A stretch of 64,000 nt of DNA from NCBI RefSeq assembly GCF_026151205.1, contig NC_087080.1, positions 3,761,096-3,825,095 on the forward strand, written 5' to 3'. Position 1 is the first letter of the stretch, and every line of letters begins with the position of its first letter. Under the pieces are notes generated by a model. That model made no database searches. It was given only the letters and a program-made list of their open reading frames with translations, and had not been told where the DNA came from. Made by a program: the position numbers and the translations under genes. This document shows, one piece after another, positions 2,009 through 39,225 of this stretch. This DNA is from Bolinopsis microptera (taxonomy: Eukaryota > Ctenophora > Tentaculata > Lobata > Bolinopsidae).

Positions 2009-2691
2009 GCCTAGGTTTAGCCATAAGTATGAAACTTTATTCAATCATGTCTGAATAAGATGATTCTCCTTTTGCCGTCCCATCTCAACCCAGAGATCAG
2101 ATAAGCTTGGACGCCTATTATCTCAATGCGATGTTAGGCAAAGTAAAAGGACATCAGTTGAGAAGAAGCTGCATCCGTTCGAGAGGGCTCATACTTGTTT
2201 AAAAAGCTTGCATGCAATGACCCAACCCACTGATTTTCTATCAACGCCAAACATTTGTTTGCTAAGTTGGAGAGTAACATACCTGGACTCATGCCAACTT
2301 CCTCAAATACCAAATTGAGAACGAGGACAAGCTAAATAGCAGTGCTGTCAACAATGAAAATGTGGACTTGACTAGGGTGCTACAGTCTGTTTTGACTGTT
2401 TCGGCTTTTGTTAGTAGTATTTAAGTGGAACGGTCTTCTGTGTCTTCATTGGGACGATGATAATCTTCTTGTGATTTTTTCTAATTGTATATATAATTGT
2501 AATTACCGATTTTTTCTAATTATTTTAATATTGATCAATGGTAAATTGAAGATATTTGGAACATTTTAGATACTGTAAACTGTGTAGTAGATTTAAAAGA
2601 ATAAGATATCAGTCGACTGACTCTATTTACTTAATCAATATTGTCACTTACAATTCACCTCTAACACCTCTATATTTGAAGTAGTGGTAGT
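2009..2691. other. Intergenic, haspin 3' side to SR-protein 5' side
   Basis: No supportable gene. It should contain the haspin 3' UTR and the promoter/5' UTR of the RRM/SR-rich gene. I saw no clear TATA box or repeat. Confidence 0.5.
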
Positions 2692-5600
2692 ATGGGTCGA
2701 GACAGAAGGGACAGCTCACGTGACAGGCGCGGCAGTCGCTACGGAGGAGGAGGCGGCGGTGGCGGCGGCGGCGGAGGGTACGGTTCCTACTCCAGCAGCT
2801 ATATGGAGACACGGTTCAATGAAGAGCGGGTAAGTGTAATTTGAAAGTACCATTATCTCGGTTAAGCTCAATTTTACATTACAAATTAAATTAAATTGAC
2901 GTAACGTGACATAACGTTGACGTGACCTACTTTGACAACTTATACAGATTGTGTGGATTGGTGGTTTGAGACGCGACACCGAAGTGAGGGCAGTCTACGA
3001 CATCTTCAAGAGATACGGAACTATTGATAACATCCTCATTGACTCTGCTACAACTGCAGCCTGGATTTTCTACTCTAACTCCAGAGACGGTATTAATATT
3101 ATGATATTTGATAGTTCACTGTAATCGATAGGATGACGTGATATGAATGTGAATGTTGTGTTCATGCAATATGTTGTTGTTGTTGCTCAAATGACTGTGT
3201 CAAATTTCATATCATGTCCCAACAAATCACTCGTGTCTCGTAATATCATGTTTCTAACAATAAATGTTAAAATTTCAGCTCGCGAGGCTGTCAGGTGCAT
3301 GGACCGACGAGAATTCAACCGTTACACCATCGCTGTTGCTTTCTCCCAGTGGAAACCCAATAAAACCCCCAAATTTCTAGAGTTGACTGATAAGTAAGAA
3401 CTTTCACATTTTAAAACATGTCACGTGTCTTTTGTCGCATGTTTTTTATCGAGAGAGGCGTGTCACTTTTGTGCAGGGTCGTGTTGTATTTCCGCGGGTA
3501 AATTCCTCTTTAAACATTTTTTGCTCTTATCTCAACGTTTACTGATAATGCCCAGTTTACTGATAATGAAGTACCCGTACAAAAGTGACCGCTTACTCAG
3601 CAGATAATCCGTTATATATATGGGAGCGTGGGGACGTATTATGGTAACATTGGTAAAAGTTGAAGCCTCCAAATAACTAAACACCAGATATATGTCGAGA
3701 AAACACCTCACCCCTCCGGGCTCTGACAGAGACAACCGAACAACAGTTTTGGCGGGATAAAACTACTAGAACGGCCGCGTCTTCTACTTCCTGCTTGCTT
3801 CGTGTACCGGTTGGGTAATTAGGACGGCTTCAATTTCAACCAAATGCCACCTTGGTTAGGTTTATCGTGTGGGTGTATGGTTTCCTTTAATCCAATTTCC
3901 TTGATAAATTATCTAACTAAGATATGGGCACCGGTGATGAGACGTGCGACATGTCAAGTGAAATTTGAACAGATAGTCGAGTGGGACATTTCCGTGAACA
4001 CACCCAAATACTAGCAAAGTAACGCGTTGCTCGCGTGATACTAGGCTGTTGTGAGCAATAAATGTGCGGGATGGTGTGCTTTAATTGAGCACGCGGCGCG
4101 GTATTTAAATTCGCCACCTCACGCAGACTGCGCCATTTCTTTGTTTGAACTCTTTGTTTGGCCCGAAACGTGTGACTCTGTCTGAATGTCTGATCTAACT
4201 GAAATGTAACCTGTTGATTTGTAACTTATCTGATACCTGTTGATTTGTGGCGTGAAGCACTACAAGGCTGGATTGCATGGTTAATGTTAAAAGGTTTTCC
4301 TTCCAGTTGAGAATTCTCAACGCTACCAACTTAAATTCATAAGCCCCTTACATTAAATCACTGAACGTTGCTTTGCTGTTGTTTGCATGGTATTTAAAAG
4401 GTACAAAAAGTTGAGTGTTCTCAACAAATTATCTCGCTGTGTTTTAACATGATTCTAGTGTGGAACGTAGCATCGTTTGACATTAAAACGTCTCTCGGGC
4501 ACCGTAAATTCGCTGGTCCCCCCGCTATTTAACCTACTATGGTTTGCTGTGTTCCCGTTAAACAATATAACATGCTATCTGTCGGATCAATCATTGCATT
4601 TTACACAACCCCGCCTGTCTATCTGTTTTGTGGTGATTTCGTAGATTTTGTAGCTCACCTTGTCTTGTGTGGAAGATAACAGTTTCAGGTACCAGGAACA
4701 CGAGAATGGAGGTCCTTCTGTCTTATCTGCCCAATCCTGACATTGCATTCTGCTCTTCACTAAAAACTTGTAATTTTGCGTGAAACTTCTCCGACGGACA
4801 CGGACTACGACGGTGTCGCGCTTCTCTCAATGAAACAACCCAGGACTTGCACGCTGGAAAGCTAGAAGAAGTCGCATAAAATGCAAGTTTTTGGTGAAGG
4901 GTCGTTCGTTTTGTCAGGTTTGGGTTGGATTTAGGCTGAAGACCACCTCCCCGTTCATGTATCCTTTAAGCCAGCAAATTAGATAGATTTAAACCACACA
5001 CTGCACGATATAACCTGCCCGTCCCTCACGCTCTCATTCTACGTTGCAAACCAAACAGCATGTAGCCAGTAGCATTGTAAATTTAAAAACTCTGCAAACC
5101 TGTAAAATACAACGAGTTAACGCAAGATTCAGACTCGTTGTGATGGGAGATATTGCGGATATCATGAGAGCGAGAAAGGGGATCTCAGCACTTCTTTTAC
5201 TTGCGGACTGACCTTCACACTCTGAAGTCCTACTCTTCTAAACTTAGCGCACTCCCTCCCACCTCATAGCAATGCCAGCAAGGTTTGGTAAGTCAGAAGA
5301 CCTCTGACCCAGTCACCAATAACGCTCCTAGCCGTGTGCTTGTGCATGTGATTGTGGCATGTAACTGTTCCACTGCAAAGACAAGTGTTGCGAACGAGGA
5401 ACAAAGCTGGACCGATAGCAAGAAGGAGTTTAAAACAACACCGAGCTGAGGGAAAAACAACACTTCATCTCAGATTGTGCGGGAGCAGTCCTGTACTCAC
5501 AGTTACATGCCACATCACTTGTCACTGTCAAGCTAGGCTTTCTCTTGACTTCCTTCTTCTGAAGCAGCAGTCCAGAAATCTCTAGAGTTAGTTCAATGAC

Positions 5601-15925: not shown

Positions 15926-18900
15926 TCACACAAAATAGCTTATGTTTTTCAAGTTCTTGTGCTGAGCCAGTTTGTATTCAATCTGACTAAGGTTGGGGGG
16001 TTTAGCTGCGTCAAACCAGTTGAGGCGCATTGCAGAGAGCATTGTGCGCGCACGTGCGCAGAGCAAGTGCGCGTAGTAGGTGGGTGCTGGGTAGGACACA
16101 CTCCTGAGTGATTTTAAGTGTCAGGAAGATAATATTAATAAATATCAGCTGATACTCTGATAATTAATTTAGAATATATCAGAAAATTAAAGTAGCTAAT
16201 AGCTATGAAACTGGAGCAACTGATATAATAATTAATTAACCGATAATTAATTTAGGAATATAAGATTCTACAATGAATTAAAATGGAAGTAGCTACTTGG
16301 GGCAACGAGCGTAAGTTAAAATGAAAGTAGCTACCTGGAGCAACGAGCGTAAGTTAAAATGGAAGTAGCTACCTGGAGCAACGAGCGTAAGTTAAAATGG
16401 AAGTAGCTACCTGGAGCAACGAGCGTAAGTGTGGCAGAGGTAGAAGGTGAGGAGTTGTACCATATCAGGGGACATGTCACTGTCGTCATACAGCACTGTG
16501 TAGTGGCAAGGTCTGTTTGTACCTGCACAACATGTATTTTATAACGGTGTAGTGGCAAGGTCTGTTTGTACCTGCACAACATGTATTTTATAACACGGTG
16601 TAGTGGCAAGGTCTGTTTGTACCTGCACAACATATTTTATAACGGTGTAGTGGCAAGGTCTGTTTGTACCTGCACAACATATTTTATAGCGGTGTAGTGG
16701 CAAGGTCTGTTTGTACCAGCACAACATATTTTATAACACGGTGTAGTGGCAAGGTCTGTTTGTACCTGCACAACATATTTTATAACACGGTGTAGTGGCA
16801 AGGTCTGTTTGTACCTGCACAACATATTTTATAACACGGTGTAGTGGCAAGGTCTGTTTGTACCTGCACAACATATTTTATAGCGGTGTAGTGGCAAGGT
16901 CTGTTTGTACCAGCACAACATATTTTATAACACGGTGTAGTGGCAAGGTCTGTTTGTACCTGCACAACATATTTTATAACACGGTGTAGTGGCAAGGTCT
17001 GTTTGTACCTGCACAACATATTTTATAACACGGTGTAGTGGCAAGGTCTGTTTGTACCTGCACAACATGTATTTTATAACACGGTGTAGTGGCAAGGTCT
17101 GTTTGTACCTGCACAACATGTATTTTATAACACGGTGTAGTGGCAAGGTCTGTTTGTACCTGCACAACATGTATTTTATAACACGGTGTAGTGGCAAGGT
17201 CTGTTTGTACCTGCACAACATATTTTATAAGGGTGTAGTGGCAAGGTCTGTTTGTACCTGCACAACATATTTTATAACACGGTGTAGTGGCAAGGTCTGT
17301 TTGTACCTGCACAACATATTTTATAGCGGTGTAGTGGCAAGGTCTGTTTGTACCTGCACAACATGTATTTTATAAAGGTGTAGTGGCAAGGTCTGTTTGT
17401 ACCTGCACAACATATTTTATAGCGGTGTAGTGGCAAGGTCTGTTTGTACCTGCACAACATGTATTTTATAGCGGTGTAGTGGCAAGGTCTGTTTGTACCT
17501 GCACAACATATTTTATAAAGGTGTAGTGGCAAGGTCTGTTTGTACCTGCACAACATGTATTTTATAACGGTGTAGTGGCATGGTCTGTTTGTACCTGCAC
17601 AACATGTATTTTATAACGGTGTAGTGGCAAGGTCTGTTTGTACCTGCACAACATGTATTTTATAGCGGTGTAGTGGCAAGGTCTGTTTGTACCTGCACAA
17701 CATATTTTATAAAGGTGTAGTGGCAAGGTCTGTTTGTACCTGCACAACATATTTTATAAAGGTGTAGTGGCAAGGTCTGTTTGTACCTGCACAACATGTA
17801 TTTTATAACGGTGTAGTGGCATGGTCTGTTTGTACCTGCACAACATGTATTTTATAAAGGTGTAGTGGCAAGGTCTGTTTGTACCTGCACAACATGTATT
17901 TTATAACGGTGTAGTGGCATGGTCTGTTTGTACCTGCACAACATGTATTTTATAGCGGTGTAGTGGCAAGGTCTGTTTGTACCTGCACAACATGTATTTT
18001 ATAGCGGTGTAGTGGCAAGGTCTGTTTGTACCTGCACAACATGTATTTTATAACACGGTGTAGTGGCAAGGTCTGTTTGTACCTGCACAACATGTATTTT
18101 ATAACACGGTGTAGTGGCAAGGTCTGTTTGTACCTGCACAACATGTATTTTATAACACGGTGTAGTGGCAAGGTCTGTTTGTACCTGCACAACATGTATT
18201 TTATAGCGGTGTAGTGGCAAGGTCTGTTTGTACCTGCACAACATGTATTTTATAACACGGTGTAGTGGCAAGGTCTGTTTGTACCTGCACAACATATTTT
18301 ATAACGGTGTAGTGGCAAGGTCTGTTTGTACCTGCACAACATGTATTTTATAACACGGTGTAGTGGCAAGGTCTGTTTGTACCTGCACAACATATTTTAT
18401 AACACGGTGTAGTGGCAAGGTCTGTTTGTACCTGCACAACATGTATTTTATAACACGGTGTAGTGGCAAGGTCTGTTTGTACCTGCACAACATGTATTTT
18501 ATAACACGGTGTAGTGGCAAGGTCTGTTTGTACCTGCACAACATATTTTATAATGGTGTAGTGGCAAGGTCTGTTTGTACATGCACAACATGAACATGTA
18601 TTTTATAATGGTGTAGTGGCAAGGTCTGTTTGTACCTGCACAACATATTTTATAACACGGTGTAGTGGCAAGGTCTGTTTGTACCTGCACATTTTATAAC
18701 TTTTGTTATTTGTTACCTAGCTTTGGTATCAAAATAGTTTTTGCCTCAAAGTAGATCAAGAGATCGTACCTAATTCCCTTGATGCACTGGATAGTTCAAT
18801 AGTGTTATTATAAAAGGCATAATTTTGAGGAGCTACTCTGTATTGGGGCTGTATTGTACAATGTTGTGTTGTACCTTTGTACGTAAAAGCTGTTGCGATA

Positions 18901-21900
18901 GGTTACGGACTGTCGTGACACAAATCTTAAATATGTCAAATCTTAAATATTCTGTGTCTACTGTATTATTACATTAAACTTATTAAGTAAGCTCATCACG
19001 ATACGTGATTTCTTAAATAGGGCTCATTTCAGTTGAAATTAAGACCAATAATTTGTTAAAGCATGTTTAAAATCAAATACAAATAATAAAAACATTATTC
19101 CAATCGCTATCTCCTAAAAGAGAATCCCTTGATAAGAGGAGGACAGGGTCGAATAAGTGTCCGAGAATGTAGAGTCATGCGAAGAGTAGGCACTTGAACT
19201 CTCCTCTTCTTGTTGGAGTTGGATAACAGGTTCTCCAAAGTAAGATCTCCGATAACTTCATCCAGCTCAGCAAAGTTCTTGTCGTTCTCTGCGTATCTCC
19301 GGTGTTGTAATGTCTTGAAATGGGCGTCCAGATCGCTGACAGAAACTCTGCAGTTCTCACAGAAGATCTTGCGTTGGGTGGGTAGGGGGCGAGGTGGGGA
19401 TTGAGTTGTGGGGGATCTGTAACATGCTGGTTTGGAGTGGGGTGTAGGAGAGGGTTTGTCTCCAGGACTCATCTGTTTAGCCCAGGGTGATCCAGAGCAG
19501 GGGTGGTCTGGGTAACATGGTACTTGAGTCTTTGTCAGGAACTGAGGCTTGTAGATCTTATCTTCATCCTGAATTACAAGAGCTGCTCGCTGGGTGATGA
19601 CAGGAGTAAGAACAGGCAGGTTTAGGTTTGGGAGGGGAGGAGTTGTGTTTTTTAACAATGTTGTAGTCTTCAAGCCACGTTTTGACAGCCACAGAAGAGA
19701 TCAGCTTGGCTCCGAGAGTATGGATCTTGGTGAGAAGTTTGGGACAGATTTTAGCCTTGTTGAACACCACTACATGAGTAACAGTAGAGCAGAAAAAGGG
19801 TTCCACAGGAATGCCAGCTATCTTGCACCGAGACTCCAGAGCGGGGAGATTGTTGAAGTAGAGGTTGTAGTTTCCAAACATTTTTAAAGGTATTGATTCG
19901 GTAGATCTAGATGTTGAAATTGATGATAGTTGAAACGTTGATATCCAGTAAGAATCATGGTCAGGCTATATAGTTTCTCTCAGGAGGTTGGTCAGCGGTG
20001 TCAAGGTTGGGTTCGCTATGTGCGACTCCCGGGGTGCTTGCTCTTCGTTCGTGTGTTGGTTGACACTACTAGTAACTAATTCGACGAAGAAAAGTGAGAG
20101 TACTGTTAAGTTAATTGTGATCTGATCCAACCAATGACAATGATACCAACAAATTTAGGATATTGCTTTATAAATTATATATGCTACAACAATTACTGAC
20201 GAACAAATTCACCCAATTTAACACGTTTACTTGACAAGCTGAACTGGGAAAATGATTGGAAACCCAATCAGCATACCTTTTTAACAGTCAAATCTCATTT
20301 AGTCACTTAACTAGGGCACCATATTAAGCTGATTGGGCAATGGGCACCTTGTTAACCGTGGGAGACCTGGGTCTAATTGGGTGAAGTGGTTGATCAACTG
20401 CAAAAGATAACATGATCATAAACATATGAACAAGCTCAAGAAAGTTTGAACAATTTACCTTGAATACCACTGTGACTGTTGAGGTAAAAGTCGAAGTGTA
20501 TTGGATTTGTTATCTCCCTGTCAACTACTGTACCGGCAGGAACATTGCCTGACCTAATAGAAAACGAAAGTTAACAAACTTTCAAAAATACAAGAACAAT
20601 AAATTTATACACATTACCTGACCTAGTAGAAAACGAAAGTTAATAAACTTTCAAAAATACAAGAACAATAAATTTATACACATTACCTGACCTAATAGAA
20701 AACGAAAGTTAACAAACTTTCAAAAATACAAGAACAATAAATTTATACACCACTTATTAGCTTCGGTCGTGACTAAATACTATACTTTATTCATAAAGTA
20801 AACAATAAATTGAAGAGGACAACTTGCATTTTATCAACTTGTAAATACAGACCTGTACAGACAAGTACAGAACATTAATAAGATAAACATTGCACAGACC
20901 TGTCAGTGTCACGTGGTTCTGCACAGTACAGTCTGGTATGATGCCGCTTCTGAGCGTTAATGTAGGTTATCTTAGGTTGGTAGTCTGGTTCTAGCTCCTG
21001 AAGGAATGTAAGGAATTTAAGGAATAAGGATGAAACAAGTAGAGAAGTGAAATACACTCTTGTTATAACACCAGGTTAAACATAGGTTAGGAGATTAGGT
21101 TTAACCACTATAGCTCTATAGGGTCGGTATACGGCCACTATACGGTCTCTATACGGCCTATAAACGGCTCGATACGGTTAACAGACCACCCCTCCCCCCC
21201 CACAATTAGTCTCACCTAACTGTAGCTCTGAGTGGACAGTTTATTACCTATACTCTACACTCTACACTCTACACTCTACACTCTACACTCTACACTCTAC
21301 ACTCTACACTCTACACTCTGCACTCTACACTCTACACTCTACAGTGTAGGATATATTATTTAAACTGTTATACTTTATAGTGAGCCACGTGTATTTGTAT
21401 CATGTAAAAAGCACGTGTTGTTTTATAACCTCATCGGAATGTCACGTTTGACAGTAAAACTACCAACACACTACAATCACAAGATGTACCGTGTCCTGTG
21501 ACTGCCAGTCAAACCAACCTGCCAGTCTACCTTAGAACGTGATGTTACATACATGTTACTATGGTTTACTAGTTGTAGACTTTGGAACGGGGGCTCAATG
21601 TGCAATGCTGTAACAATGAGATGTTACAGCATTCACATGCACAGGTGTGAGCATTTGGTCACATATGGTAAAATTATCATGGCCCTAGGGCGTATAAATT
21701 GATCAGTAACGACACTTGAGATGCTGGCCGATCAGAGGATTTGTACAAATAATTACTGTCTAGGTGTGCAATTTTACAAGATACAAAATTAGAGCACTTG
21801 GATATCAGATGTCAAAACTTGAATTTAAGCTCCTTTGTCATTGAGTTTAGAGCGATAATGAATAATTTTAGGAACTTTAAGCCCCGGTAGATGAAATATG

Positions 21901-24900
21901 ACCTCCCCACATGACACAGTAAATTATATTTACACACGTCAAACGCACCACATCAAGACAGTTAAACCCAAGCAAGCATCAATACCATCCGGGTATACAC
22001 GATATTTCCAACTAATGAATAAAGATAACACGATAACATATCCTCTAAAGCCCTCTAAATGTCCCCTAAAAGCTACCTTGCAAGCTGCCTGGATCCCAGC
22101 AATCTCCTCAGTCAGTGTCTGGATAAACTGTCCCTGTGAAACACCGTCTCTGTAGTATAATATCTTGGAGGGTTTGCGCTTTGAGGTGATGCGGAACTCT
22201 ATCAACAGTTCCTTCATTATTTCCTGAAAATTGATCAGTTAAATTGGAGGACGTTGTTTAATGGAATTGACGGAGGAAAGCTGATATTTTATCACAAATT
22301 TGACTGTGTCATAATCGAATTTATGATATAAAAATTACTAAATTTTAGCGTCATCCATAAAAACAGCACCAGAAATAACCTTGAAATCACCTACCTTGAA
22401 ATCACCCTACCCTCACCCTAACTTGAAATCACCCTACCCTCACCCTACCTTGAAATCACCCTACCCTCACCCTACCTTGAAATCGCGGATAATCTCATCT
22501 GAAGTTCTGTTCCGTTTGTGGTGTTGAAGTCGGATTCTACTGGCGTACTTACTGCACGCTCGGTCTAGCGTACACACTACACCTGCTATTGAGGGCTTGT
22601 TCCCTTCGTCTGGAAGTTATTGGTGGTTTAGTGTCACGCGATAAATTCGTTTGGAAACCTGCCAGAATCTTTAGTTTCAGTGTATTGAATAAGTTATGTA
22701 GCGTTAATTAAGGCTCTCACTGTACAATGTACATTGTACTTTGAAGTACAGAATACAATGGTGAAATAAAGTTTGGTTCCTATGCCATGGTAATTTGAAA
22801 TTCAAACCCCGACGATAAACCAACTGTAGATGCTCCATTTCAAACATACCTCTAGCCCAATGGGTGACATCTGCTCCAACTATCATTACCGGTTCGCTGA
22901 ACACAAACTTTCCCATCTGGTTTGCTAGCGGTGACATGTTGTACGCCAACTGAGATCAAGGTTAAGATTTAGAAGAAGAAAAATTATAAATAGTAAATAA
23001 AAATGAATACTAATAGATTCTATTAAATTGACCGATTTTATTAAGTTATTTAGCATTGTATCATGACTGGGTTGCAGGTTGCAGGTTGCAGGTTGCAGGT
23101 TGCTGGTTGTGATATCAAACATAAACCTATAATTCCAGTACTAACCTCCCAGTTGACTCCTCCTAGTTTGGTGTTTGTTTTTAGTAGAATGTTACCCAAC
23201 GTTTGGGGTTTGAACTTCTTCTGATACGTGTCTGATTGAAGGAGATTTTAATCGAATATTTGTGAAGTTGTGTAGCGTATATTGAATCTGGGTGAATTAG
23301 AGTTCACTCAGATTGCAGGGGAAATCACTGTGTTTAACTTACGTGGACCAATTGGCTGCTTTCCCCAGATATTTGATTGTAACCAAGCCGGGATGGAAAT
23401 ATGTATAATCTTTTGGACGGATGTAACATATATCTTAATTTAGCGGCCAGGAATAACATTACATTGTGATCTTAAGCGACGTGTCCTAAGGATAACTATT
23501 CTAGCCACATCACTAATGTGGCAAGTCATGGTGATACTTACACAAAACATATATAATCATTTCAATGTTTTAAATTCTTGATGTAAACTTACTCATACTT
23601 ACAGATATTTAACTTAATTATAAATTTATTTGCACAAATTAAAATTTTCATGGCATCATTGGTGCTTGATAACTATCAAGTTATTACCAGCTATTGATAT
23701 GGCTTGAACTTGCCCGTGTTTTCACTAGATTTGAGAGCACTTTCCAACTATTTAATTAAGTAAGTTATCAAGTGATTAACAAAAACTAATTAATTAAGTA
23801 ACTGACCTAATCTGATACACTGAGTAAGGACCCCGGAGGAGACCTCCATCTCTTTAACCATGCTGTATGTGTTGTTGTTTGTGTTAGGTGGTAGGATCAC
23901 GAACATGTACTGTAGGTTCTTGTGTTGTTCTATTATCTCTTCTCCTATTCGCAGGAAATCTGGGCAAATAGATTGGTGATTAGTAAATAGTTAATTAACT
24001 GTGATTGATTAATTTGGTTTGGGTGGATGAGGATTTAGAATATTACAAATTGATAAAGCAAATTATAATTTAATTAAGATTATCAGCTTTAACTGTTGTA
24101 AATGTTTTATCTCATCTATGACTCAAACCATGAGGAATTAAATTTCAATACACAGAGAAAGAGTCAACTCACTTCGTTCCTCGACGTATCTAACAACCAC
24201 AGGATCACTAAAGATGATCCCCATATTGGATCCCTCCTTTGCAAGATCATTCTTGAACTTTCTTGGGTCGAACCGGTCTTTAGAGGCCATGCTCATGAGG
24301 CCCCAATTAGTAAGGGATCTAGAGGTCTTCATCCTGATAATTATTATCAGTATTTCATCTGTAACAAGCTAACTTATGTTTTCTTGGGTAAATTTCTATT
24401 GATCCTGTTTGATGTGACAAGGAAAAGGCTCTTATCAGGAAAGGAATTATTCAACGTTTCAATGTGACTCGAACATAAGCAAACTTATGTTTGATATCCA
24501 CTAGGCTTAATTTTATAATTCGCCAAAATATGGCAGATAGCAATATTTCAGGGGCAGATAATTTATTGTTAAAAGAAATTTTTGACTACGAGACAACATA
24601 TAATTGTGATGGAAAACATTAAACATGAGAGCTGAAAAGTTATGACGTGAGAAAGTACCTTTTTCCCCGCCACTGTCCAGCACTTGCCGTAACGCTGCCG
24701 TTACCGTAGGTTAGGTTGGGAGCCTGCAACACTCTTCCCTTCACCTTCATAGGTCTGTCACTCAACTCTAGTCCGTAGCTCTGAAATATTAAACGTTAAA
24801 TTCCAGTTGCAGTATTGAGTACTATGTTTGGTAGATTGTTTTCTAAGGATTTTATTGTTTGAAATTTATTATATACGTAATTTATTATATACCGTAATTG

Positions 24901-30900: not shown

Positions 30901-33900
30901 TGACCAACCTTACTAATTTCAAATGACTTGAAGCTCTGTCTGTTCGGATAAATACTGGTGAGAAAATCTTTTAAACTCTGCTCCTTGTAAAATGCAGTGT
31001 GCTTCTCGTCGATATTCACCAGTAACTTCCACTGCCCTGAAAAGAATTTTAATAAATTTCCAACTAACTAAACAAACTGTATTTAAGACAACAAATTAAA
31101 TTTAAAGTTTATTTAACAAATTAAGACGTAAACGTGAAGAGACAAAGTTAAACAGGCAGTTTGCCCTACTGTAAATCAGTTACTGGCACTTATACTCGAC
31201 ACTGAGGAGTAAAGTTTAACAATGGCTTGTTTGTGATAAAGCAGCTATAAAGCATAATTGCCAGATCCTGAGATCCCCTCAAACGTCGGCAGCTGCAGGT
31301 TTCAGTTATAATGTAACTCATTGTAACTGGTTTCAGTAAAAATGTAACTCATTGTAACTGGTTTCAGTTACAATATAACTCATTGTAACTTGTTTCAGTA
31401 ACAATGTAACTCATTGTAACTGGTTTCAGTAAAAATGTAACTCATTGTAACTGGTTTCAGTTACAATATAACTCATTGTAACTTGTTTCAGTAACAATGT
31501 AACTCATTGTAACTGGTTTCAGTAACAATGTAACTCATTGTAACTGGTTTCATTAACAATGTAACTCATTGTAACTGGTTTCAGTAACAATGTAACTCAT
31601 TGTAACTGGTTTCAGTAACAATGTAACTCATTGTAACTGGTTTCAGTAACAATGTAACTCATTGTAACTTGTTTCAGTAACAATGTAACTCATTGTAACT
31701 GGTTTCAGTTACAATGTAACTCATTGTAACTGGTTTCAGTAACAATGTAACTCATTGTAACTAGTTTCAGTAACAATGTAACTCATTGTAACTGGTTTCA
31801 GTAACAATGTAACTCATTGTAACTGGTTTCAGTAACAATACATAACTCATTGTAACTGGTTTCAGTAACAATGTAACTCATTGTAACTGGTTTCAGTAAC
31901 AATGTAACTCATTGTAACTTGTTTCAGTAACAATGTAACTCATTGTAACTTGTTTCAGTAACAATGTAACTCATTGTAACTTGTTTCAGTAACAATGTAA
32001 CTCATTGTGACTGGTTTCAGTAACAATGTAACTCATTGTAACTGGTTTCAGTAACAATGTAACTCATTGTAACTGGTTTCAGTAACAATGTAACTCATTG
32101 TAACTGGTTTCAGTAACAATGTAACTCATTGTAACTGGTTTCAGTTACAATGTAACTCATTGTAACTGGTTTCAGTTACAATGTAACTCATTGTAACTGG
32201 TTTCAGTAACAATGTAACTCATTGTAACTGGTTTCAGTTACAATGTAACTCATTGTAACTTGTTTCAGTAACAATGTAACTCATTGTAACTGGTTTCAGT
32301 AACAATACATAACTCATTGTAACTGGTTTCAGTAACAATGTAACTCATTGTAACTGGTTTCAGTAACAATGTAACTCATTGTTACTGGTTTCAGTAACAA
32401 TGTAACTCATTGTAACTGGTTTCAGTAACAATGTAACTCATTGTAAATGGTTTCAGTAACAATGTAACTCATTGTAACTTGTTTCAGTAACAATTTAACT
32501 CATTGTTATATGGTTCATTAAAATGTACACATCGAGCTTTATCTTAGGTGAATGGGTCTAATTACATACAACACTGAGGACATCTCTGGGGATTCAATGT
32601 GTTGGTTCAGTACAATAAACAATTTAACGAGTACAGCAACATGTGTATGGTAATAAACTACGCAATGGGTGGGGACTGTATGACATAACGTCATTATTCC
32701 AGAGCCCAGAGTAACAGGTGTGAGATTAGTAAATAGTAACACGTGAGTAACACGTGTGGAATTAAACATTCCTAACCTGGTTTAACTGCCATAACAGAAC
32801 CGGACCAGAGTTGAATACCATTCCCTAGATCAGCAACGGTTTGACCACGTGGGAAATAGTTCCTTCCGTAGCTCACGTAGCTCATTTTTGGCATGAAGCC
32901 AAGGATTATGTCGGCGCACGAGAATAGGTTGTAAGGTAAATCTTTGGTCTCGTTTTTGTACACTTTCTGCGGAATAGGTTGCTGTGTGTTAGTACACGGG
33001 GTTCAAAGTTCATGAATAAAAATATTTCAAGACATAATTATTAATTATTATAGTATAGAGTGAAGAACACCATGTGATTTTCCATATACAATATATTATA
33101 TAACTGTTATACATTTTATTTAGCAAAGGAGAAAGATTACAACTATAAATGTGTAATTTAATGTAAACATATTCGATCAATTGTAGATTATTATATTTAT
33201 CCAGTCAGCAGATGAAAGGCCAACTGAACATGTTAATTGTGTGCACAGTTTTTTATATAAGTGTTGAAGTGTACACGTACCTCTATTTCAGAGAATTCTA
33301 TTACACCCTGAGTGGGCCGTATCTGAATGTTGATTGCTTCAAGCCGCGTAATGTTACTTTGGAACTTTACTGGCAGTTGAATCTGCAAATTATCATTCAT
33401 CAGGTGTTAGATTCGTGTGAAAAAACTCATTTGAATATTTCCATACAAAAAATTCAAGATAAAAATTGAAATGTAATGACCACAAATTTCTTATCGTTAA
33501 ACGGTCAATATTAAATATACCGACATTTCATTATGGATTAGCATGATAGCATTATGGTTCCCATATATATGCTCTTAGATGGTATAATAAGGAACCATGA
33601 GGCAAACAGCTTACCATCTTATCAAGGTTTGGAATACGTTTATTAGTGTACATGATCCGACTACCATCAAACACCGGATGAATACCTGAAAAAATTGTAA
33701 ATAAAATTAGCCGAATAATGAATTTGCCAGAGTGAATCCTGATGATTAGTAAGTATACACTATACAACGATGATAAGCAATTAGTATAAAACGTAAATTC
33801 CTAATTAACATTAGTTACGAACCTGTGAAGTACACGTCTCTGTAGTCGGAGACCATTCTGTTAAAAATATCTACTGCTAAACTTTTGTTGGATTTCAGTA

Positions 33901-36900
33901 TTTTCTCTGGAATCTGCAACAGTATTTACTATCAAACTTTTAATCATCAAACGTTTTCTTAGTTAGATGTGCTTAAAAAGCCGAACTCACCTTTTTGACG
34001 CAAACATTTTCCTATCTAAATCTGTGCATCTGTGTTTCGGATTTTTTAATCATATGACAAGCGGATGCTTTTTAATGTAGAAAATGTGTGAGCATTGCTA
34101 CGTAAGTTTAAAATGTGTCATTAAAAAGATTGAAACGAGACTAAGAGGTTAACAGGGTTTATATCCAAACTAAAATTAAATCTAATTTTATTTCTATTAA
34201 ACGATGTAACTTTACCTCAATTGTTATTTCGTACTGATGTATCTTCATAGTAGGTTTGTGATTAATCTCGTAAAAATTAGTATATAAGTCGATAGGTTTC
34301 CCTTCCACTCCATAGTCCTTCCTGGCAGATATCGAAAATTAATAAGTTCCAGATAAAAACGCTTGACTGAATGTTTTAGAACACAGCCATTCTGTAGAAA
34401 ATCAGTACAAATTTTAGAGCCGAAAATAGAACAATCTGAACTGGCAGAATTTTCGAGCAGATTACCCACACCTCTCACAAACCTGTGCATCAATTCCAAG
34501 GTTTTATTTTTTGATGTCCAGGGGTTTATTATCTTTCCATTTGCGTCATATTTTGGTGCTATCTGTAGCTCTGCAACTTGGTTTGCCTGTACAGTTTTAA
34601 ATTAGTCTTTTATTTAGATAATTATTATTATATAACTTTATTCAAATCAAAAATAGAACATAAAGAACATCTTGATGACCTGATAAGTCACCAAGAGAAA
34701 AATAACACAGAATAAACTAAATCATGCTTAACTCTCTCCATGCTTTTCTATCTGTTGCAAAAAGTCTTAAATGGTATAAATCGTCTGTATTTACAAGTCT
34801 AAAGTTTCTGTCACTTAAATCGTTCAAAATAGTTTTTAACAAGTTTGACTGGTGTCGTCCGACTCTACCTCTCATCAAACTCTGACTCTCTACAGCAAAA
34901 TGTAAGGCAAGCTGGGCAGGTGAGTTATTATCACTGCGGAGGATGTGACCGAGCATTCTCCACCGTGCACGAGCAACACGCTCACTTAGTGGAACAACTT
35001 CGCAGCGTTTGTATAGAGTCACATTTCGTATGACATTAGGGTAGGTCATGCCGATGATCGTACGGAGATGATTCCTGTGGCAGACATCAAGTTTTTGAAG
35101 GAGTTGTTTAGATGTTGCCCAACTGTTGCAATTATACATCAGTATTGAAACAACTTGTGCTTCATATATCTTGAGTCGAATCTTCAAGGGTATACGTCTA
35201 CCTTGTTCCCAGACTTTTTTGTAGTTCTGAAAAGCAATGTTAGCAAGTATACATCGTCTCTTGACATCTTCGATGCTACACAACTTAGAGCCTAAAGAGA
35301 TAGATGACCTCCAAGATTCTCTACCTCTGAGTGTCTCTCCTTTGTCATCAACCTCGTTCTTTCCGGCCAGATAGAAGTGGGTGAATTCGGTTTTTGACTC
35401 ATTGACAAAAAGATTCCACTCTTCCAATATCTCTTTACATATTGGCAACAAAGACTCCAAGTTGCTTTTATCCTCATCAGTAAAATCAGCATCATCTGCA
35501 TACTCCCACTCGAGGGGTAACAGATTCTCAGCTATGGGAGGGTTAGGTCTTAGATAGGACATAACAGCACGCAGGTGGTAAAGTGCTGCTGCCAGATATA
35601 GAGTGAACAAGTTTCCAGACAAACTGTCGCCTTGAAAAGCTCCAATTGTGACAATAAACTCTCCCGATATTGTTGAGTTCACTTTGATCTTCAGTTTAGT
35701 ATTTGCGAGCAAATACCTTACCAGTCGAATGTCGTCCTCACTACAACCAGCATCAGCTAAAATGTCAAGTAATACCGACCTCTTTATGGTATCAAAAGCA
35801 GAGGACATGTCAATGCCCATCTTATGAAAAGACCAGCGTTTTTCTTTGACAACTGACACTAGTATTCGCTGGGTCCAAACGATATTTGCACAACTATGGC
35901 CAGGTTTATAGGCATTCTGCCAAGGACCAGTGTATTGAGATACTTGCCTTTGGATGCGCTTTAAGACTATCATGGACAATATCTTTCTAGTACCGTTTAG
36001 TAGGCAAAGTGGGCGCAAACTCTTAGGGGGGCCTAGTGGCTTTCCAGGTTTTTGGAGCGGAGTAAGGTATCCCTCTGTGAAAGAAGGTACATGTTCATGG
36101 AGCTCAAAGGATCGATTAGTAAGTTGTGCAAATGTGGAAAAAAATATTTCAGGAGAGTGTTTGAGAAATTCGTTTGGGATCCCATCTGGTCCAACAGCTT
36201 TACCGTTCTTGAGTTTCTTGGCCGCAAGCTCAACTTCAAACGCTGTAATGGGGTTTTGAAGGGGCCTAGGGTTACCTGTGAACGGTTCTAGTGGTGGTTC
36301 ACTGTCAGGTCCAGTGTAGTGTTCTTCGAAGTACTGGCGAATGATTTCAGCCTTGTCTCGTTCATTATCTACCAGTTGGTTGTCACTGTTGAAAACAGAC
36401 ACAGAGCCTGCACCCGTTTTCTGTTTGCCTGATAGTTGACGAGCAGCTTCAAACATTCTCCGTCCTTCGTCTATGGTGGCTATAGAGTTAGCTAGGCTGT
36501 TTGCTAACTCAACTCTCAATGTTTTCAACCGTTTAGTAATGTCGTTTGAGAGCCTGTTGATTTTAGCTCTGAGAGCTGTCCTGTCTCTGTATTCGTTGTT
36601 GTTCAGTTGTTGTAAAAGTTGTTTCCTTTCTTCAGACATGCTAACAACTTGACTGTCAGAGGAATGATTCCTCTTTCGCTGTGGCTCGCGAAAACCCACA
36701 GTGGAAACAGCAGCTTCTTTAACTTCACCAAAAAGCATATCAAATTGCTGTTCCGTGTTGTTGGAGGTAAAGTCAGGATCTGATACAGTTTGCTCGAGTT
36801 TCTGACGAAGTTCTTGCTGATATTGTTGTTGAGCCTGTTTGCTTCCAATCAAGGTTGTTGTGTTATAAGTCTTCTGAAAAGCTCTGCTCTCCCTGTACAA

Positions 36901-39225
36901 AATGAAGCGCTGCGAAAAATCTGCCTTGGCAACAACAAGTTTGTGGTCACTGCGGTGCTTTGTACCTGCATATGACCTGGCATCAGTTAGCAGTGCCTTG
37001 CTTCTGGACTTGCAGAGTATGAAGTCAATCTGTTGGAAATAAGGTTTACTTTTCCTGGTTGCTCGATCCCGAATCCAACCAGTCCGTGTGGTAATGTGTC
37101 TGCTGTTATGGGAGAATGAAGTGTTGGCAGCAAACAGGCCATTAGCAGTGAGAAAGTGTAGCAACCTTTCACCGTTTTCATTCCTCCTCCCAACACCATG
37201 TCTACCAATATTCACATGTAAACCATTTTCTACATCAACAGGGCTTCTTTTGCCAAGTTTGGCATTAAAGTCGCCTAACATCCATACTTCAAATCTAGCA
37301 GGTACACTGATAGCCTCGAGTAGCTCATCGTAAAATTGGGTTGCTAATCGGGGATTCTGAACTGACTTGGGATTCGTAGGGCTGTAACAATTAACAATTC
37401 TGATATGACAAGGTGGTTGATCCACCCTTTTAGCACTTAATTTAAAGTCCATATAAACAACTCTGTCACTGATCTGATGATGCGATACTATACATTCCAA
37501 AAAACGCTTGTTAACAATAAACCCAAGTCCACCGTGTCTATCGTGTCTCTGATCAAACAAAAACAATCGATGATGTCCAGGGAGTGTTGTTTCCAAGTAT
37601 TCACGTGTCTTGGTCTCCTGAAGTGCTAAAATGTCTAAGTTATATCTGTCAATGTCCTCTGCAACGAAGTGTTGCCTGTATGTGGTCGATAGACCGCAAA
37701 CATTCCATGTCCCAAAATTGAGTGTCGTAGCCATGATGAAAAGAGTAGCGTAGACTAGGAATCCTGCGATCTTCCTCGAGGCGTTAAACGTACTGACTTT
37801 TGCAGTCATGCGGACCCGTTACAGTCACACACCATCCTATCAGATAGATAATTAGATAATGCATTAATAATGGCCAGCTTGGAGGCACTTATTCAATCAA
37901 TAACCATATGATTCCGTATATCATACGAGTGAAAATATCGAAATATTTCAAACCAGAGGTTCTTTTTCAGGAGAAGGTGTTTGTTGTGCTGGTTCATCAG
38001 CTCCGGGTTTTTTATGTTGAGCTCGTCCCCTTCCCCTGCCGGTAGGTACATTTCGTTGTGGTGACTTCTGTTCGTTTTGGTTCTGTGGTGAGTTGATAGG
38101 AGTAGGATTCTGTTGGGGTGTTGCTGGAGTTGATCCTACTGGACCTGGTTAAGATTTGCTATTCACTAGTTATGTAATATAATTGTTATTTATTTTTTCT
38201 ATATAAGATATGTTTTTTGGGAAAACTTAATTTTGTTGCTAGATAATAAAATTGCTAATGATTGTAATAATAACCATTAAGATATCTTCGTGCAGACATT
38301 AATATCACTGCAATAATATCTGCTAATAAAGAGCAACACCTTCGAAGTTACATAGTTACTACTAGAGTTAAATGAAAATGACCCAACATGTACTCTGAGC
38401 ACTGGCTTGTCCCTCTGAAAAATAGATGGACAATGGGCATTGCAAATATGGCACAGTACATGCAAGTAAGTAATGACTAATGAAATAACATGCCATGTAC
38501 ATGAATGCAAAATAATGTCATATTATGTAGCTAACCTTTTAGATGCAATATTAAGACTTGGAGGATAAAACATTCTTAACTAAGGAAAAAGGGTTAAAAC
38601 CTAAACTGTAAAAACCTAAACTGTAAAAACTGCTCATGCAGAAAACACAATAAGGTATCAGTGGGTAGTGAATACTGACTCAGTTGTGGACTAAGGTTTT
38701 TCACAACAACCAATTCAAGATTGCTCATATGCAGACTTAACAAAGCATTAAAAAACATCTACAATGCAGTTCAACCATCCAATCTACACACGTTTGGCTG
38801 AACGTCTAGGCATTGTCCAAGTTGAGCTTCAGTTGACAGAAAGTAGAAATTGCTAGAAAGTAAATCAAAAGTGAGACGATTGTTCTTTGTGTACCACTGG
38901 TACAGAAACCATAGCAGGAATAGATTGAATTAAAGAGTCCATCTTGGCAAGCCAAGAGAACTGTAACCATAGCATAGGAGCTATGAGTTACATTGACGGC
39001 ATTTTGAAATAGGTAGAGGTTTGGTGCTTACCACAAGCAGTGCAATCGATTACACTAAACCTTTACTGCCCGGAGAGACCTACTATAGATGTAAGTCGTT
39101 AAAGCTATAAAAATTGATTTTAATCAGCACTTGAAAATGTTTAAAGGATAATAACCTGTTGTTTGGGTAGGCTTTCCTCTGCCTCTCCCCCTTCCGCGGG
39201 GTGTATTTGGGTTACTATTATTCAT
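15926..39225 (-). CDS. AGO: Argonaute (Ago clade), full length, 24 coding exons
   Basis: Exons (5' to 3'): 39225-39156, 38144-37954, 34586-34483, 34321-34216, 33913-33823, 33685-33615, 33382-33281, 32966-32777, 31036-30909, 30561-30450, 29762-29671, 29454-29381, 28965-28842, 24780-24659, 24333-24173, 23959-23807, 23231-23146, 22949-22850, 22609-22476, 22223-22077, 20997-20900, 20553-20459, 16522-16411, 16103-15926. This gives 2841 nt, 946 aa, all phases matching. The N-terminus has RGRGRGRG and TGRGRGRA stretches in Pro/Gln-rich sequence. The N domain starts near [16 protein letters not shown] covers about 310-445, MID about 525-660 and PIWI about 660-946. The slicer tetrad is intact: D686 (GADVTH), E731 (DEII), D763 ([11 protein letters not shown]), H900 (TYYAHL). 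The 5'-phosphate pocket is kept: Y611, K615, Q626, K652. It should therefore be a small-RNA-guided nuclease. Seven of 23 introns start GTT. Introns host DBF4, an SRCR gene, a LINE and many arrays. Piwi is excluded by the Ago-type RHHTRLYC and [11 protein letters not shown] motifs. Confidence 0.96.
16285..16432 (-). repeat. Tandem copies of the Argonaute exon 23 donor junction
   Basis: A 38-bp unit is repeated four times, the last copy being the true exon 23/intron junction at 16411. On the minus strand each unit carries CTTACGCTCGTTGCTCCAG, the last codons of the exon, followed by GTAGCTAC, the donor. Confidence 0.9.
16493..18700 (-). repeat. About 45 tandem copies of the Argonaute exon 23 acceptor junction
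   Basis: Units of roughly 46-51 bp fill the 3' end of intron 22. On the minus strand each unit has TTGTGCAG followed by ACAAACAGACCTTGCCACTA, i.e. the acceptor and the first codons (TNRPCHYT) of exon 23, then a short AT-rich part. The exon-proximal copy is the functional exon (16522-16411). Variants differ by loss of AC or GT dinucleotides. Many copies have a stop soon after the copied codons. Apparent open frames across this array are repeat artefacts. Confidence 0.95.
18701..19106. other. Intron 22 of Argonaute between array and DBF4
   Basis: No feature recognised. It presumably includes the DBF4 3' UTR. Confidence 0.5.
19107..19881 (-). CDS. DBF4: Compact DBF4, regulatory subunit of CDC7 kinase, nested in Argonaute intron 22
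   Basis: All three DBF4 landmarks are present in order. The BRCT-like motif N begins [13 protein letters not shown] and includes [12 protein letters not shown] motif M-like stretch reads [11 protein letters not shown]. The motif C zinc finger is CENC...HFKTLQH (C-x2-C-x9-H-x5-H) followed by [20 protein letters not shown]4 activates CDC7 to phosphorylate MCM at replication origins and in meiosis. The N part and the M/C part are in different frames. Best model: two exons, 19881-19657 and 19568-19107, with an 88-nt GT-AG intron (donor GTTAAA, acceptor AATTCAG), giving 687 nt, 228 aa. The alternative is a single-exon copy with a frameshift, perhaps at the A-run near 19650. At 228 aa it is far shorter than typical DBF4 proteins (500-700 aa). 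Same strand as the host Argonaute gene. Confidence 0.8.
19882..20458. other. Intron 22 of Argonaute upstream of DBF4
   Basis: Presumed DBF4 promoter region. A GT-AG bounded pseudo-exon is visible near 20390-20355 on the minus strand, but its translation is not Argonaute-like. Nothing else is supportable. Confidence 0.4.
20541..20757 (-). repeat. Three tandem copies of the Argonaute exon 22 acceptor junction
   Basis: A 68-70-bp unit occurs three times. On the minus strand each copy contains CTATTAG (or CTACTAG) followed by GTCAGG, the exon 22 acceptor and its first bases. The copy at 20553 is the true junction. Confidence 0.9.
21243..21347. repeat. 7-bp satellite (CACTCTA)n
   Basis: About 14 near-perfect copies in Argonaute intron 20. 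Confidence 0.95.
22376..22488 (-). repeat. Five copies of the Argonaute exon 19 donor junction
   Basis: On the minus strand GATTTCAAG followed by GTAGGGTGA, the true end of exon 19 and its donor, recurs downstream about four more times (one copy has TTAGGG instead of GTAGGG), interleaved with a GTAGGGTGAGG spacer. Confidence 0.9.
23072..23106. repeat. (GGTTGCA)n short tandem repeat
   Basis: Five copies of a 7-bp unit in Argonaute intron 17. Confidence 0.9.
25232..25456 (-). CDS. Possible small single-pass membrane protein (74 aa) in Argonaute intron 13
   Basis: An ATG-initiated frame with one long hydrophobic segment (about residues 8-29, Val/Leu/Ile-rich) followed by RSYKRTLRQ, which by the positive-inside rule puts the C-terminus in the cytosol. 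The 45-residue tail is polar. No family is recognised, no splice partner was found, and no clear polyadenylation signal was seen. It could be a genuine microprotein, one exon of an unseen gene, or chance. Confidence 0.3.
   Translation of the reverse strand: MIESGAYVIMLVLVVVIIVLLLVVLCLVRSYKRTLRQFSLRGCPVISKPSDTDSHIVSSTYHGKPRNPLPNRKF
26030..26255 (+). repeat. 12-bp minisatellite GCTCTTTACAAA, about 18 copies
   Basis: Perfect to near-perfect 12-bp units (TTTACAAA/TTTATAAA alternation). Because the unit is a multiple of three it creates open frames (KALY or KLFT repeats). They start within the array and have no conserved flanks, so I do not call a gene. Confidence 0.95.
27034..28483 (+). CDS. Secreted SRCR-domain protein with novel C-terminal domain, nested in Argonaute intron 13
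   Basis: Four exons: 27034-27235, 27355-27560, 27719-27846, 28114-28483; 906 nt, 301 aa, phases 1, 0 and 2 all match. The first 15 residues ([15 protein letters not shown]) are a signal peptide. Residues about 67-160 resemble a scavenger receptor cysteine-rich domain: [20 protein letters not shown] corresponds to the CDDxWxxxDAxVVCRQLGY signature, followed by cysteines in NCFDF, TCTV, MPCN and VYCW. The last 125 residues form a Lys-rich globular region of no family I know ([40 protein letters not shown]), ending SPKRSR without a membrane anchor. It is antisense to the host gene; AATAAA follows at 28800-28805. SRCR proteins commonly bind ligands or microbes, but the ligand here is unknown. The exon 2 donor (27560) could alternatively lie 36 bp upstream. 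Confidence 0.75.
28800..28805 (+). terminator. Polyadenylation signal of the SRCR gene
   Basis: AATAAA, 317 nt after the stop and 36 bp before the antisense Argonaute exon 13. Confidence 0.55.
29770..30232. repeat. 10-bp array ACACATGTAA abutting the exon 11 acceptor
   Basis: About 45 copies of a 10-bp unit with CATGT/CGTGT variation. It starts only some 8 bp from the Argonaute exon 11 acceptor at 29762. Long open frames ([10 protein letters not shown] repeats) in all minus-strand frames are artefacts of the array. Confidence 0.95.
30348..30428. repeat. 11-bp array TACTTAATTAA
   Basis: Seven near-perfect copies in Argonaute intron 10, close to the exon 10 donor. Confidence 0.9.
31298..32515. 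repeat. 31-bp array with internal dyad symmetry, about 39 copies
   Basis: The unit contains AACAATGTAACTCATTGTAA, whose CAATG and CATTG halves pair. Some copies (GTTACAATG...CATTGTAAC) are perfect 9-bp inverted repeats. It lies in Argonaute intron 8 and is transcribed with the gene. Confidence 0.95.
34623..37851 (-). mobile_element. Full-length-looking RTE-like LINE with 9-bp target duplication
   Basis: Flanked by the direct repeat TTAGATAAT (34614-34622 and 37852-37860). The 3' end on the minus strand finishes in an ATA/TAA microsatellite, the tail type of several LINE clades. It carries one uninterrupted ORF. It lies in intron 2 of the Argonaute gene, in the sense orientation. Confidence 0.85.
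34717..37809 (-). CDS. LINE polyprotein: APE endonuclease plus reverse transcriptase, 1030 aa
   Basis: Single uninterrupted ORF. The N-terminal third is an apurinic-endonuclease-like nuclease: [25 protein letters not shown] and KHRSDHKLV contain the expected Asn, Glu, Asp/Asn and final Asp-His residues. The central third is a reverse transcriptase: [26 protein letters not shown] (first catalytic Asp), [13 protein letters not shown], and WEYADDADF (the YADD catalytic pair). The C-terminal part, with a CHRNHLR segment and [11 protein letters not shown], is typical of RTE-related elements. All catalytic motifs look intact, so this copy may be competent or recently inserted. No separate ORF1 is seen. 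A second, decayed member is in the haspin intron (796-1443). Confidence 0.95.
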   Translation of the reverse strand: MTAKVSTFNASRKIAGFLVYATLFIMATTLNFGTWNVCGLSTTYRQHFVAEDIDRYNLDILALQETKTREYLETTLPGHHRLFLFDQRHDRHGGLGFIVNKRFLECIVSHHQISDRVVYMDFKLSAKRVDQPPCHIRIVNCYSPTNPKSVQNPRLATQFYDELLEAISVPARFEVWMLGDFNAKLGKRSPVDVENGLHVNIGRHGVGRRNENGERLLHFLTANGLFAANTSFSHNSRHITTRTGWIRDRATRKSKPYFQQIDFILCKSRSKALLTDARSYAGTKHRSDHKLVVAKADFSQRFILYRESRAFQKTYNTTTLIGSKQAQQQYQQELRQKLEQTVSDPDFTSNNTEQQFDMLFGEVKEAAVSTVGFREPQRKRNHSSDSQVVSMSEERKQLLQQLNNNEYRDRTALRAKINRLSNDITKRLKTLRVELANSLANSIATIDEGRRMFEAARQLSGKQKTGAGSVSVFNSDNQLVDNERDKAEIIRQYFEEHYTGPDSEPPLEPFTGNPRPLQNPITAFEVELAAKKLKNGKAVGPDGIPNEFLKHSPEIFFSTFAQLTNRSFELHEHVPSFTEGYLTPLQKPGKPLGPPKSLRPLCLLNGTRKILSMIVLKRIQRQVSQYTGPWQNAYKPGHSCANIVWTQRILVSVVKEKRWSFHKMGIDMSSAFDTIKRSVLLDILADAGCSEDDIRLVRYLLANTKLKIKVNSTISGEFIVTIGAFQGDSLSGNLFTLYLAAALYHLRAVMSYLRPNPPIAENLLPLEWEYADDADFTDEDKSNLESLLPICKEILEEWNLFVNESKTEFTHFYLAGKNEVDDKGETLRGRESWRSSISLGSKLCSIEDVKRRCILANIAFQNYKKVWEQGRRIPLKIRLKIYEAQVVSILMYNCNSWATSKQLLQKLDVCHRNHLRTIIGMTYPNVIRNVTLYKRCEVVPLSERVARARWRMLGHILRSDNNSPAQLALHFAVESQSLMRGRVGRHQSNLLKTILNDLSDRNFRLVNTDDLYHLRLFATDRKAWRELSMI

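Follow-up and report, generated by a model that had tools for sequence, protein, structure and literature searches.

Tandem copies of an Argonaute splice acceptor in the ctenophore Bolinopsis microptera: a probable mirage, with comparable arrays in kinesin genes

Alternative splicing coupled to nonsense-mediated decay (NMD), for instance through poison exons, is a known regulatory mode. Repeats that include splice signals have also been met in another context, that of the "mirages" described in the Adh3 and globin genes of amphioxus (PMC3087553). According to the available text of that paper, two haplotypes of BflGb6 carry 6 and 3 units; its authors see in the Adh3 data, as in their own RT-PCR, an indication that regular splicing goes on undisturbed, and they propose mirages as an origin of new introns. 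Intron gain by tandem genomic duplication is proposed as well in the accessible portions of PMC4974935 and PMC2891723. As for ctenophores, the part of the Hormiphora genome paper at hand gives 13% of tandem repeats and describes numerous genes nested in introns, and n = 13 is reported in excerpts of PMC8527503 and PMC11797021. A search mostly of the freely accessible literature gave, among the matches listed, no ctenophore example of a mirage or of a minisatellite at a splice site. The array described here, at the edge of an Argonaute exon of B. microptera, is very probably a mirage, i.e. a minisatellite issued from a local duplication spanning an intron-exon boundary.

The window, by which we mean the whole stretch of 64,000 nucleotides analysed, corresponds to C9:3761096-3825095 in a genome of 264.65 Mb and 232 contigs. 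Twelve of the contigs C1-C13, all but C4, are 15-26 Mb long and together make 241.7 Mb, which agrees with the n = 13 given for ctenophores. A glutamate-receptor segment has its best match in ML032222a of Mnemiopsis, with 129 bits against 88 for the next other molecule. The Argonaute gene occupies its minus strand from about 34.3 to 15.9 kb. Its exons were placed by comparing the window with a paralog on contig C7 (locus L001), then by reading the splice sites. The model holds 20 exons and is incomplete at its 5' end: exons 2-20 form a single open frame of 759 aa, and the join between exons 1 and 2 breaks the frame, so that a missing exon is probable there and the first intron call, still included in the 38 junctions considered below, is provisional. 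Piwi, PAZ and ArgoL1 are above their Pfam cutoffs; ArgoL2 scores 30.1 bits, below its cutoff of 33.3. The top PDB match is argonaute-2 (491 bits, aligned over residues 3-723 of the 759), and the alignment, read by eye, retains the D, E, D and H positions, which we take to be the slicer catalytic tetrad of Argonaute. On these domains and this tetrad, with ArgoL2 below its cutoff, the gene is, as judged from sequence, an AGO-clade Argonaute. A preliminary description of this DNA had called the exon next to the array "exon 23" and the last slicer residue H900. Neither number was reproduced with the present 20-exon model and its incomplete 5' end; in this model the last catalytic His lies in the following exon and would be lost on decoy use.

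Table 1. Coordinates in the window of the Argonaute exons, intron and splice-site arrays discussed in the text.
Feature	Position	Strand	Basis
Last Argonaute exon, with catalytic His (YYAHL) and stop	15926..16103	-	exon model, argonaute-2 alignment
38-bp x4 array with the donor of the 16411..16522 exon, 20 nt of exon inside	16278..16430	-	TRF, exon model
Argonaute exon after the array, terminal copy	16411..16522	-	open frame across joins, argonaute-2 alignment
44 tandem decoys: intron 3' end plus first 25 nt of exon, units of 47-55 nt	16523..18691	-	TRF, unit splitting
3,936-nt intron, site of the 49-bp array and of a DBF4-like coding region nested in it	16523..20458	-	exon model, profile match
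Upstream Argonaute exon, ends ...NSHSGIQ	20459..20553	-	exon model
69-bp x3 array with the acceptor of the upstream exon (20459..20553), 12 nt of exon inside	20542..20750	-	TRF, exon model
27-bp x3.5 array with the donor of the ...IIRDFK exon, 9 nt of exon inside	22378..22484	-	TRF, exon model
Argonaute exon ending ...IIRDFK	22476..22609	-	exon model

The nested region inside the 3,936-nt intron (19107-19965, minus, the same strand as the gene) matches zf-DBF with 52.6 bits, one of four such matches in the genome. It is read in two overlapping frames, the shift between them lying perhaps in a run of A around 19650, and it is either a retrocopy, a pseudogene or an assembly indel. Directly upstream of the Argonaute gene a frame of 1,033 aa (34717-37818, minus), with endonuclease and reverse transcriptase domains, is probably a non-LTR retrotransposon. 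Further on, a frame of 366 aa (42954-44054, plus) weakly matches the meiosis protein Mei4, with 26.8 bits for a cutoff of 25, and a minisatellite of 74 copies of 20 bp (TRF, 45002-46474) lies in DNA without called gene.

TRF finds in the array a period of 49 bp repeated 44.7 times between 16498 and 18691, and splitting it into units gives 45 copies, that is 44 decoys and the true exon as the terminal copy. The decoys measure 49 nt (21 of them), 47 nt (11), 51 nt (11) or 55 nt (one). As in a mirage, the 49-nt unit spans a real exon-intron junction, joining the end of the intron to 25 nt of the exon, and carries a splice signal, AG being kept in 41 of the 44 decoys. The exon-derived part is almost invariant: TNRPCHYT is encoded by all 44 decoys, the sole change in these 25 nt being a synonymous CCT to CCA in three of them. 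Variation resides mostly in the intron-derived part. The sequence TTGTGCAG, read by eye from the list of units, is exact in 40 decoys; decoy 1 has ATGTGCAG, decoy 3 has CAT for CAG, and decoys 37 and 41 have CTG for CAG. Altogether 13 unit types are distinguished among the decoys, two of which end without AG (CAT once, CTG twice), and AG is thus absent from three decoys. A block of four units, A-A-M-K (194 bp), occurs twice consecutively, in agreement with a second TRF period of 194 bp spanning 16494-18691.

The array is also of local origin. A 22-mer of the unit, searched with up to two mismatches in the genome outside N stretches, gave 45 matches, every one of them inside the array, and the reversed pattern used as a control gave none. 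A dispersed repeat or transposon as the source of the unit was ruled out, no further copy being found in the 264.65 Mb of the genome.

The decoys resemble the true site in strength. Acceptor scores range from 6.3 to 8.0 in the 41 that bear an AG, the true site having 8.0; among 92 sampled acceptors, the true site falls at the 33rd percentile. When splicing to each decoy is simulated, a premature stop is predicted in 44 cases out of 44, within the inserted repeats for 43 of them and in the exon for the last one; all these stops fall at least 78 nt ahead of the last junction, as splicing coupled to NMD would call for. The preliminary description, which saw in the array not an arbitrary satellite but the acceptor and the first eight codons of the exon repeated some 45 times, with the exon itself as the last copy, was thus right in its anatomy, and right as well in that decoy use would truncate the protein. 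Some of its statements have to be narrowed: the exact acceptor is found in most units rather than in each, the 44 decoys preceding the real site provide 41 acceptors with AG, and the early stop after ten residues that it foresaw applies to 20 of the 44 decoys.

This acceptor is not the only duplicated junction of the gene. Four of its 38 called junctions are duplicated, three arrays adding to the one first described (Table 1), and the letters at the junction are AG|GT in all four. The intron that holds the 49-bp array also exists in the C7 paralog, where it measures 261 nt and lies at the same place and, reading the phase by eye, in the same phase (GIQ|GTN), with no array. In this one paralog checked at this intron, the conservation between paralogs that regulatory splicing would call for is therefore not seen. 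Elsewhere in the paralog locus (4493-4764), 18 copies of 15 bp begin at an apparent donor GT and fill most of an intron with no exon bases included. In the Argonaute gene of the window, one intron houses a minisatellite of 39 copies of 31 bp (31298-32506), clear of the junctions.

Genes of four other families—CCT, myosin head, kinesin and SNF2—were surveyed, chosen by protein family and blind to repeats. The matches used, those lying in exon clusters, were 27 of 35 for CCT, 57 of 73 for myosin, 88 of 109 for kinesin and 31 of 40 for SNF2, and introns were called from HMM order, phase and GT-AG. For CCT, myosin and kinesin, 138 neighbouring exon pairs yielded 129 called introns and 9 uncalled; three of the 129, scoring below 2, were excluded, leaving 126. 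This calling supersedes an earlier and stricter one of 36 introns (35 from CCT and myosin, one from L001). For SNF2, 20 introns were called from 22 pairs and three were excluded on the same score; this family stayed outside the founder and edge tests given below. Loci L001, L002, L008, L018, L019 and L049 contributed no junctions to the count. A junction was considered duplicated when its 16-nt word (7 nt of exon and 9 of intron) had, with at most one mismatch, an extra same-strand copy in its own intron. In myosin locus L012 (2613-3086), two differing copies of one exon (HMM 105-167 and 102-167), starting 243 bp apart, are possibly mutually exclusive exons.

Outside Argonaute, 7 of 286 junctions are duplicated and all belong to kinesin genes (7 of 126); by this 16-nt word test none was found in CCT (0/38), myosin (0/88) or SNF2 (0/34), and inverted words used as controls gave 0 of 324, Argonaute included. 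As kinesin differs in this from the three other families the rate is uneven, and we would give no single figure for the genome. In the seven cases, read by eye, a junction word of 13-18 nt occurs 2 to 50 times, true site counted: the donor word has 50 copies in L035, 24 in L036, 8 in L039 and 2 in each of L031 and L032, the acceptor word 31 in L031 and 5 in L036. Two other kinesin acceptors fall outside the count, one in L022 with 4.7 units by TRF, whose array runs past the end of the stretch, and one in L035 with 111 copies, the unit including just 3 nt of exon. L035 is rich in repeats: 112 copies of 26 bp at an acceptor (2687-5597) and 52 copies of 33 bp at a donor (472-2217), tandem repeats making up 72% of its 7.8-kb stretch. 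In six of the seven counted kinesin cases, those called jointly with the neighbouring exon, HMM order and phase agree with a true site at the terminal copy, which is the first among donors or the last among acceptors. The junction letters of the seven counted cases are AG|GT once only, the others being CG|GT, TG|GT, GG|GT, CA|GT, AG|GA and AG|TT.

Is the edge of introns preferred by these arrays, or simply not spared? A model in which arrays are founded uniformly across the intron and its edges predicts 3.7 spanning arrays for the introns of the CCT, myosin and kinesin genes, where 7 were observed (P 0.05); a restriction to units of 10 bp or more brings the expectation to 3.8 (P 0.06), and for kinesin alone it is 3.2 for the same 7 arrays (P 0.018). 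The Argonaute gene, which was not blindly chosen, has 4 against 1.2 expected. Arrays that do not span a junction also lie close to it: in the 126 introns, 14 of 76 are found 20 nt or less from an edge for 5.9 expected (P 0.0006), in the jointly called introns 9 of 38 for 4.8 (P 0.02), and among units of 10 bp or more 12 of 67 for 5.5 (P 0.002), these three tests being post hoc. This hints at a non-uniform placement near the edges, i.e. at more than blind tolerance. By the 16-mer measure, on the other hand, duplication is no more frequent at junctions than in the interior of introns, since 11 of 324 junction words but 52 of 648 random intronic 16-mers have another copy in their own intron. A strong targeting of splice sites is rejected on this comparison, together with the 7 spanning arrays against 3.7 of the founder model and the edge bias of about twofold in the non-spanning arrays. 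A fair reading is that minisatellites grow in general, intron edges included, and that these edges are possibly preferred twofold.

The idea put forward in the preliminary description, that decoys act as a brake by sending a tunable share of transcripts to NMD and thus limit the level of Argonaute, is consistent with the near-equal scores of the AG-bearing decoys and with the uniformly early stops. We nevertheless find it very unlikely, and its Argonaute-specific form is not supported: kinesin genes carry similar or larger arrays (words with 50, 31, 24 and 111 copies), the paralog keeps the intron in a short form devoid of array, and two of the 13 unit types end without AG. The amphioxus mirages, besides, are reported in the available text of PMC3087553 to leave splicing undisturbed. 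When two units are folded as RNA, the structure is no more stable than those of shuffled sequences (z 0.93, 165 of 200 shuffles being at least equally stable), which also goes against the brake; by the same comparison, a hairpin concealing the decoys was ruled out. The arrays could alternatively serve recursive splicing. Each unit being a GT...AG segment, splicing to a decoy would rebuild a 5' site (AAG|GTACAA), and the remainder would be removed in later steps. The AG|GT of the four Argonaute arrays and the frequency of exons starting with GT (30 of 92 sampled acceptors) speak for it; but the score of the rebuilt donor is low, at the 8th percentile of the donors sampled, and the single AG|GT among the seven counted kinesin arrays makes recursive splicing highly improbable here. 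As a general rule, self-correction by AG|GT phantom introns or recursive splicing is rejected by the six kinesin arrays with other letters.

Duplications spanning AG/GT are proposed as a substrate of intron gain (PMC3087553, PMC4974935 and PMC2891723, in their available parts), so that the array might be taken for a new intron under way, made from an AG|GT segment duplicated in tandem. This is extremely improbable, and a new intron is rejected, since the paralog shares the intron at equal place and phase: the intron is older than the array. Long tandem arrays are, lastly, prone to mis-assembly, which could have raised the copy number; yet the 13 distinct decoy sequences do not follow a strictly periodic order, and the array sits inside a gene whose exons 2-20 keep one frame, on a contig of 17.4 Mb. 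Such an error is hardly credible.

The presence of the same kind of arrays at other junctions of the gene and in kinesin genes argues against a switch specific to Argonaute; what we see looks like an ordinary growth of repeats at intron edges. To form the mirage, some two dozen nucleotides of the intron end would have been duplicated in tandem along with 25 nt from the start of the Argonaute exon, and the array would have grown into the intron, away from the exon, by slippage or unequal exchange, the duplication of a four-unit block being presumably one of the steps. The exon would stay fixed as the 3' terminal copy, the decoys being spliced away as intron and the mis-spliced transcripts bearing an early stop. 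The true site, as the terminal copy, might be chosen through exon definition, and births at intron edges might be tolerated because the true site—the last acceptor or the first donor—gives the shortest exon. Against the mirage explanation speak the non-uniform placement of arrays near intron edges and the confinement of the non-Argonaute cases to kinesins, a pattern that it does not predict.

A broader proposal, which we consider doubtful, is that splice-site arrays form in this lineage a genome-wide class arising by preference at the edges of introns, perhaps through splicing-coupled R-loops or slippage that start there, with the used site chosen by position and an occasional use of decoys acting as a length-tuned brake. 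If this were true, the spliceosome would pick by position one site among tens to more than 100 nearly equal ones. With acceptors nearly identical in tandem (45 here, 111 in a kinesin gene) the strength of the site is largely removed, so that position must decide; such arrays would offer a natural test of exon definition, and exon definition and scanning become testable in natural genes. They also stand as a warning, as gene models and the mapping of RNA-seq reads can be led astray in such genomes.

How does the locus compare, finally, with the systems evoked at the outset? With splicing coupled to NMD through poison exons it shares the premature stops predicted upon decoy use, but it differs by the C7 paralog, which does without the array. 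Like the intron gains by tandem duplication proposed in the available parts of PMC4974935 and PMC2891723, it involves a segment with splice signals duplicated in tandem; unlike them, the intron pre-existed and only its edge was amplified. The likeness is closest with the amphioxus mirages, as far as the accessible text of PMC3087553 describes them: tandem units across an acceptor or a donor, splice signals in many units, and the exon as the edge copy. The differences are in the host, a ctenophore, in the genes, Argonaute and kinesin, in the four junctions affected within one gene, and in the copy number, 44 decoys here and 111 acceptor words in a kinesin gene against the 6 and 3 units of the BflGb6 haplotypes. 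The amphioxus cases, besides, rest on RT-PCR and haplotype data in that text, whereas the ctenophore arrays are read from one assembly. The array belongs to a known kind, the mirage, at a higher copy number than in the amphioxus examples available, and would extend this kind from cephalochordates to a ctenophore.
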